The translations under genes were made by a program, and so were the position numbers. Positions 7,711 to 34,308 of a stretch of DNA of 64,000 nucleotides are shown piece after piece. The DNA is from an uncultured Prevotellaceae bacterium (GTDB taxonomy: Bacteria > Bacteroidota > Bacteroidia > Bacteroidales > Bacteroidaceae): positions 1-64,000 of the forward strand of contig CAMKTN010000009.1 in assembly GCA_946415705.1 (NCBI GenBank), in the 5' to 3' direction. The number at the start of each line of letters is the position of its first letter. Position 1 is the first letter of the stretch. The notes beneath the pieces were generated by a model. The model saw only the letters and a program-made list of their open reading frames with translations, did no database searches and was not told the DNA's origin.

Positions 7711-7751
7711 CTTACACAGCAGGCTGCATCGTGCGATGCAGCCTGCTGGAT
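7711..7751. repeat. 41-bp palindromic repeat, copy 1 (copy 2 at 32948-32988)
   Basis: CTTACACAGCAGGCTGCATC-GTGC-GATGCAGCCTGCTGGAT. Confidence 0.9.
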
Positions 7752-32815: not shown

Positions 32816-32853
32816 GAAGAGCTAGGTCTTACGGCCGTAAGACCTAGCTCTTC
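32816..32853. repeat. Perfect 38-bp palindrome
   Basis: GAAGAGCTAGGTCTTACGGCCGTAAGACCTAGCTCTTC. Confidence 0.95.
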
Positions 32854-32947: not shown

Positions 32948-32988
32948 CTTACACAGCAGGCTGCATCACGCGATGCAGCCTGCTGGAT
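32948..32988. repeat. 41-bp palindromic repeat, copy 2
   Basis: CTTACACAGCAGGCTGCATC-ACGC-GATGCAGCCTGCTGGAT; differs from copy 1 only in the 4-nt loop. Confidence 0.95.
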
Positions 32989-33093: not shown

Positions 33094-34308
33094 ATGAGCA
33101 GACGGAAGGAAGAGGCCCTAGCGGCGGGTGTGCAGGTGAATGAAACCAAGCACAGCATGAAACGACGTAAGCCTTGGCATGATTATCGCTGCAAAGGGAC
33201 TTATATGCTGACACTGGTGGTGGCTGAACGGCGGCCGCTGTTGGGGCGGTTGGTGGCTTCGGAAGTTGGGGTACCCGCAGCAGGGGTACCCGCAGTTGGA
33301 TTGCCCGCAGTTGAAACTGCGGGAGTGGAGGCCATTACGGAAAGAGTGGGGGCGGTTGCGACGAAAGTTGAGGCTAGGGTGGAGTTGACGAGGTTAGGGC
33401 GCGTGATACGCGATGAGGAGGTGAGGAAGATAAGCGAGATTTACAAGATGGTTGAGGTGTGGAAGCTATGCATCATGCCAGACCATATACACATGATAGT
33501 AAGGGTGAAGGAGGATATACCAGAAGGGAAGCATCTGGGCATTGTCATTAGGGGATTCAAGGCCGGGTGCTCTCGGGCGTGGTGGAGAGAGAGGGGGCCC
33601 TGCGTTCAAACGCAGGGAGTGGGGACTTTAGCTCCCGCATCGGTTTCGGCAATGGAAGTAGCTACCACTCCCGCATCAGCCACCACTCCCGCAGTATCTA
33701 CTGCGGGTAATACAGCGGGCAAAACCGCGGGGGAAGCCGCGAGCGCGGCCGGCCCTTCCCTCTTTGAAAGCGGCTATAACGATTTGATTTTGCTCGGGGA
33801 TGGGCAGCTTGATAATTGGAAGCATTACCTCGACGATAATCCACGAAGGCTGGCTATCAAACGACAACATCCTGAGTTCTTCACTACTATGCAATATGTT
33901 GACATCGCCCAGTGGCATTGTCAAGCTGTGGGGAATCGTTTCCTATTGGACATTCCCCAGAAGGTGGCGGTTATCGTGCATCGTGCTTATACCGACAAAG
34001 ACTTCGCAGAGAAAAAAGCGGAGTGGTTAGCATGTGGAGAGGCTGGCGGGGGGCTGGTGAGTGCCGCCATTGCTAGTCGCGAGAAGGAGGTGATGCGAGA
34101 GGCTATGGATAGGGGCTATCGCATCATCCTAGTTCGTGAGAATGGTTTCCCCGCCTTATACAAGCCCGCCGGGGAGTCGTTCGACGCGTGCTCGGAGGGG
34201 CGACTGCTGCAGGTCTGCCCATGGGAGTATCATATGGAGCGGCGCGTCATCTCGCGAGAGCAATGCCTGTCACTGAACAGGTTAGTGGAGTACATTGCCA
34301 GTCACTGA
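33094..34308 (+). CDS. RAYT-like (Y1/IS200-type HUH) transposase with DprA-like C-terminal extension
   Basis: YMLTLVVAERRPLLG, KLCIMPDHIHMIVRV (HUH), GYNDLILL..YLDDNPRR; C-term REKEVMREAMDRGYRIILVRENGFPALYKPAGESFDACSEGRLLQVCPW; TACATTTG box at 33060. Confidence 0.8.
   Translation: MSRRKEEALAAGVQVNETKHSMKRRKPWHDYRCKGTYMLTLVVAERRPLLGRLVASEVGVPAAGVPAVGLPAVETAGVEAITERVGAVATKVEARVELTRLGRVIRDEEVRKISEIYKMVEVWKLCIMPDHIHMIVRVKEDIPEGKHLGIVIRGFKAGCSRAWWRERGPCVQTQGVGTLAPASVSAMEVATTPASATTPAVSTAGNTAGKTAGEAASAAGPSLFESGYNDLILLGDGQLDNWKHYLDDNPRRLAIKRQHPEFFTTMQYVDIAQWHCQAVGNRFLLDIPQKVAVIVHRAYTDKDFAEKKAEWLACGEAGGGLVSAAIASREKEVMREAMDRGYRIILVRENGFPALYKPAGESFDACSEGRLLQVCPWEYHMERRVISREQCLSLNRLVEYIASH

Follow-up and report, generated by a model that had tools for sequence, protein, structure and literature searches.

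The window, a 64,000-nucleotide stretch of DNA from an uncultured Prevotellaceae bacterium, contains at 33094–34308 on the forward strand a single open frame of 404 aa that combines a Y1 HUH (RAYT-like) domain, a disordered linker and a C-terminal DprA-like domain. The HUH motif MPDHIH (residues 128–133; 33475–33492, +) and the tyrosine motif YLDDNP (residues 245–250; 33826–33843, +) both carry residues that are invariant in 47 relatives, namely M128, H131 and H133 in the former and Y245, N249 and P250 in the latter. The protein therefore possesses the HUH motif and single catalytic tyrosine in YxxxNP expected of a RAYT; D130 is nearly invariant in the family. Two flexible segments are present: a first variable segment, partly disordered, at about residues 59–98 (33268–33387, +), and the HUH-to-Tyr linker, residues 165–221 (33586–33756, +), which is hypervariable across the family. 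The DprA-like domain, a predicted Rossmann fold, occupies residues 266–404 (33889–34305, +).

The RAYT/Y1 HUH core proposed in the preliminary description was upheld by these invariant residues and by the profile NF047646 (REP_Tyr_transpos), which matches the window protein at E=2e-6 and 27.7 bits, a score below the cut-off of 80 bits, and all 47 family members at E≤0.01 (best 6e-13). The C-terminal domain and the family-wide occurrence of the hairpins described below had been missed. In the AlphaFold2 model of the whole protein (pLDDT 82.6; below 50 at residues 61–75 and 175–216), the N-terminal part resembles IS200-type TnpA (ISDra2, IS608) and RAYT 4er8 structures, and the C-terminal part resembles Helicobacter pylori DprA and ShosA. 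When the C-terminal domain was modelled alone (pLDDT 95.6), all 14 of the 14 top Foldseek matches were DprA or ShosA, with a probability of 1.00 and a query TM of 0.59–0.65 for 4ljk, 5mll, 3uqz and 8zva, at an identity of 13–19% in the structural alignments. By sequence the domain falls outside Pfam DNA_processg_A (PF02481), which matched 1 of 46 family members, weakly (E 0.11). Taken together, the structural matches at the two ends indicate that the window gene product, as modelled, joins a RAYT-like HUH nuclease to a DprA-like ssDNA-binding fold. A sequence search of the PDB gave chance-level matches only with the single window protein and weak IS200 matches only with the family profile; a fold search of BFVD, plasmid and phage searches, and PADLOC returned no match.

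Relatives of the gene are numerous, with at least 537 named. The best 80 of these at least 537 belong to Bacteroidales, mostly Prevotella/Prevotellaceae, and are largely MAGs from the rumen or other gut sources, a single isolate, Prevotellaceae bacterium MN60, being among them; the genomes compared are nearly all drafts, mostly MAGs. In a set of 248 Bacteroidota genomes, only the window's own was seen to have the full-length form; the remaining matches listed do not extend beyond about position 227 of the profile and lie in shorter open frames of about 140–270 aa. The shorter-frame Bacteroidota RAYTs examined have 10–26 residues beyond the tyrosine motif, against the DprA-like domain of about 140 residues in the window family.

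Within the open frame, the hairpins and repeats were found where the preliminary description had placed them. Tandem half-units (GTAC-CCGCAG) in the form GGGTACCC-7-GGGTACCC lie at 33269–33291, and hairpin 1, CCCGCAGT-TGAA-ACTGCGGG, lies at 33304–33323 with a perfect 8-bp stem, a 4-nt loop and AGTGG after it, so that the first variable segment holds two half-hairpins GGGGTACCCGCAG in tandem together with hairpin 1. Hairpin 2, CCCTGCGT-TCAA-ACGCAGGG, occupies 33598–33617 and is again followed by AGTGG, and hairpin 3, CCCGCAGT-ATCT-ACTGCGGG, occupies 33688–33707 and is preceded by CCACT; judged by these flanks, hairpins 2 and 3 face inward. The direct repeats GGGGTACCCGCAG and CCACTCCCGCA each occur twice in the frame. 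Counting perfect stems of at least 8 with loops of 3–8, the frame contains four hairpins (including GGGTACCC) against a mean of 0.08 per codon-shuffled ORF; permutation of synonymous codons with the protein fixed gave a mean of 0.29, and four or more in 1 of 400 permutations. The pattern CCCGCAGTN4ACTGCGGG, allowing up to two mismatches, has two matches in the window and none in 100 shuffles, and comparable hairpins elsewhere in the window are merely scattered. In the AlphaFold2 model, hairpins 1 and 3 map in or at the disordered segments 61–75 and 175–216 and hairpin 2 maps at the linker start, which bears out the earlier proposal that REP-like hairpins are tolerated here as peptide inserts.

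In-gene hairpins are a trait of the whole family. The HUH-to-Tyr linkers, which are tandem-repeat-rich and variable in length, contain 38 perfect hairpins of at least 8 bp in 27 genes among 57 relatives, against expectations of 0.99 after codon shuffling and 1.05 after dinucleotide shuffling, and the core sequence of the same relatives, four times as much sequence, holds five in 45 kb. Stem sequence varies between subfamilies while complementarity is kept. In the best-sampled subfamily, picked by protein position only, the element reads GTNT-GTTGCnnn-NNN-nnnGCAAC-ANAC, and the inner pairs vary yet remain complementary. Of the protein-anchored cells, which were not selected for pairing, 96.2% are paired; cells altered on both sides numbered 39 against 10.4 in shuffled data (0/500 shuffles), and pairing collapses when the protein-anchored alignment is slid by a single base. 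Furthermore, 35 of 45 linker hairpins bear a GT tag at a foot, and the tagged linker pairs face inward in 8 of 10 sampled cases, as do those of the two closest homologues, L181 (61% identity) and L182 (59%). The three hairpins of the window gene have a foot of ACTC/GAGT rather than GTNN and no GT tag.

Both closest homologues carry hairpins at the two linker positions of the window gene, with several compensated pairs: hairpin 2 shares its position with their CTGGCGT-N4-ACGCCAG and hairpin 3 with their C[AT]GAGGT-N4-ACCTC[AT]G. In L182, a hairpin arm is repeated several times. Alignment to a homologue lacking the inserts, as earlier suggested, was possible with L183 (67% identity over the matched C-terminal part), which has almost no linker insert and no hairpin there, in keeping with the earlier reading; instead, a hairpin tagged GTTC follows closely after the gene.

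Pattern searches of genomes were used to assess dispersal. The same stem is found upstream, inside and downstream of the gene in L028 and L063, and inside and downstream in L026. In genome G027, the stem of the family gene has 13 dispersed copies against none in the control, located upstream of, inside and downstream of the family gene and in other genes, most of them within reading frames; the host genes, named from their translations, include valS, argS, cysS, methylmalonyl-CoA mutase and an NRPS. Hairpins of relatives lie in frame within valS, argS, rsmE and others, and valS orthologues at 93% identity have a different sequence in that ValRS loop and no hairpin. In the window's own genome, two copies of the paralogue hairpin CCTTCGGG-N4-CCCGAAGG lie in the paralogue's ORF and one lies downstream of it; four unrelated genes also contain the hairpin, translated as PSGSPEG in every one. 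Copies per genome are few, about 7–13. Since the hairpins of relatives flank the genes and are dispersed, several of them in frame in other genes, they are intragenic REPs.

The window branch differs in this respect. Relatives have flanking and dispersed hairpins, with tags that are mostly GTNT or GTNC and in a few cases GTAG, as compared with the GTAG/GTGG tags of RAYT REPs, and the hairpins of the window gene are untagged and restricted to its ORF: beyond the two ORF copies, the pattern search of its own genome gave one copy with one mismatch and one copy with two mismatches at chance level. The former, at C37:443, was considered as a REP and rejected, as it sits between two genes and is probably a terminator hairpin. 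In G111 and G149, the stem of the window gene's orthologues is again found in the orthologous genes alone. The window stems do not recur elsewhere in the genome, they lack a GTNN foot, and orthologous stems occur in their own genes only, so that there is no sign of trans mobilisation in the window branch. Genome-wide recurrence of CCCGCAGTN4ACTGCGGG, on which the preliminary description had staked its reading, was thus effectively lacking for this stem, while dispersal holds for hairpins of the family. The suggested insertion or amplification of a hairpin unit fared similarly: hairpins have multiplied within and outside genes across the family, but recent insertion in the window gene is not evident, because L181 and L182 have hairpins with compensated stems at the same two linker positions.

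Other palindromic elements were noticed alongside. Window positions 7717–7748 and 32954–32985 contain identical 14-bp stems, CAGCAGGCTGCATC/GATGCAGCCTGCTG, with differing tetraloops, and the inner 11-bp stem has 18 genome copies (up to two mismatches) against none in the control; the copies viewed often adjoin CTATAGAGGG and GTGCG...TTAAGAAA motifs, and one lies upstream of the window RAYT and another upstream of paralogue C3. A perfect hairpin with a 17-bp stem, GAAGAGCTAGGTCTTAC-GGCC, is located at 32816–32853, intergenic and upstream of the gene. Own-genome contigs C17, C27 and C47 carry variant GTTACNGTTCCCTCGGG repeats, with several of these clustered within a few kb, which may represent a further hairpin family. 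The ValRS loop preceding VVATTRPETI holds different perfect hairpins in several genomes (L228, L225, L215), the window's own included, and a recurrent element, CTCCCCCC-cac/gtg-GGGGGGAG, is found within ValRS and near family genes (L223, L230, L045, L060). In L197, a reading frame resembling the glutamate synthase small subunit contains the family's TGTTGCGAC hairpin.

Hairpins of this sort are the usual recognition targets of ssDNA-cutting transposases. The window gene probably encodes a RAYT-type Y1 HUH nuclease with a DprA-like ssDNA-binding domain, whose own REP-type hairpins ride as in-frame passengers in its two flexible segments. When the region becomes single-stranded, for instance as lagging-strand template, each hairpin would fold; the HUH domain would recognise stem and foot and nick via Tyr245, and the DprA-like domain may hold the ssDNA or pass it on. 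Over time, hairpins would have been copied to the gene flanks, to the gene's own linker and to loops of other genes, with in-frame, stop-free insertions as the only survivors. In favour of this reading stand the excess of in-gene hairpins, the covariation of stems, the foot tags and dispersal seen in relatives and the predicted folds; against it stand the untagged and undispersed hairpins of the window branch and the draft state of nearly all genomes compared. The window copy may still be active.

Other origins of the hairpins have to be weighed against this passenger reading. Cis-acting control elements of the gene's mRNA or DNA, acting for example in autorepression or mRNA stability, selected in cis and immobile, would agree with the confinement of window-branch hairpins to the gene and with the compensated stems among the window gene, L181 and L182. 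Such a role is unlikely, given that relatives carry the same stems in unrelated genes and intergenically and that the linker of L183 has no hairpins. Moreover, one-sided stem mismatches (5 T-G and 3 C-A/A-C) displayed no clear G-U wobble bias on the coding strand, and there is therefore no sign that the strand of importance is the RNA. Shared GT foot tags, inward-facing pairs, a stem common to both flanks of the gene and identical stems dispersed genome-wide, with none in the control, would all be left unexplained if the hairpins were neutral minisatellites in disordered linkers, formed and kept perfect through replication slippage together with template switching within a strand (quasipalindrome correction) and with no role for the transposase. 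That origin has the tandem-repeat-rich linkers of variable length and the repeated arm in L182 in its favour, and template switching is able to mimic compensatory change; on balance, it appears very unlikely.

Scarcely credible, and already contradicted, is the idea that protein sequence is what has been conserved and that the DNA symmetry is a by-product, which corresponds to the ancient alignable protein sequence that the preliminary description had set against its own reading. The peptide V-A-x-x-x-Q-Q-T is indeed repeated among close relatives. However, V codons in the best-sampled subfamily are nearly always GTT and A codons GCG or GCT while the loop codon is free, so that third codon positions are fixed in the way that preserves pairing. 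In addition, the peptide is wholly different between subfamilies, identical hairpin DNA is translated in another frame in other genes, and the segments are disordered in the model and nearly absent in L183.

Under the preferred reading of a nuclease carrying its own hairpins in frame, the family offers a testable case for the mechanism of REP movement and for the part that RAYTs may play in it. Over many homologous genes, the enzyme and its hairpin stem vary in concert, with the substrate located within the gene itself, and dispersed copies can be counted and dated, as conserved coding genes house many of them. The DprA-like fusion points to a second step of ssDNA handling, which RAYTs are not known to have, and the family may account for the repetitive linkers of Bacteroidales 'transposase' genes and for inserts that enzymes such as ValRS have in particular lineages. 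A bolder proposal, conceivable though rather doubtful, is that an undescribed HUH-DprA fusion class takes hairpins from its own coding sequence as substrate and spreads them, in frame, to coding loops genome-wide, possibly via DprA/RecA-style ssDNA recombination rather than classical transposition; its own variable linker and, in rumen Bacteroidales, the loops of housekeeping proteins would then diversify by one machinery.

Among known systems, RAYT/TnpAREP subclass 2.4 (Bertels group 4) has REPs in frame between HUH and Tyr, a variable linker and flanking REPs (Quentin et al. 2018, PMC6006769). The window family likewise has in-frame REP-type hairpins between HUH and Tyr, but differs in having DHxH for NH[IFV]H, mostly LFE/LFA for WQ and Y[LIM]xxNP for YIxNNP, in its GTNT/GTNC foot tags, and in its C-terminal DprA-like domain of about 140 aa, subclass 2.4 being without extension; the window gene itself has DHIH, LFE and YLDDNP in place of the NH[IFV]H/WQ/YIxNNP set. 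Bacteroidota RAYTs of ordinary length (about 190–240 aa) have in-gene hairpins in 10 of 16 cases, some with GTAG...CTAC double feet. REPINs and REPtrons comprise inverted hairpin pairs, gene-flanking and dispersed (PMC3116915, PMC6006769), and resemble the inward-tagged inverted pairs of several family members and their flanking and dispersed hairpins; unlike them, the family pair sits within the transposase coding sequence, and copies are few, with many of the dispersed ones lying within genes. Intragenic REPs and Rickettsia palindromic elements are short stop-free palindromes in frame in housekeeping genes (PMC3733652), as are the family hairpins, which in contrast also occur both in and beside the gene of a candidate mobilising enzyme. 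With DprA and ShosA the family shares the predicted C-terminal fold, from which it departs in its low sequence identity and its fusion to a HUH nuclease. In the open-access literature, no description was found of a DprA-like fusion with a RAYT, of GTNT/GTNC-tagged REPs or of such stem covariation. Whereas REPs inside RAYT genes (subclass 2.4, PMC6006769) and intragenic REPs in other bacteria (PMC3733652) are already published, the DprA-like fusion, the GTNT/GTNC tags and the positional covariation appear to be new.
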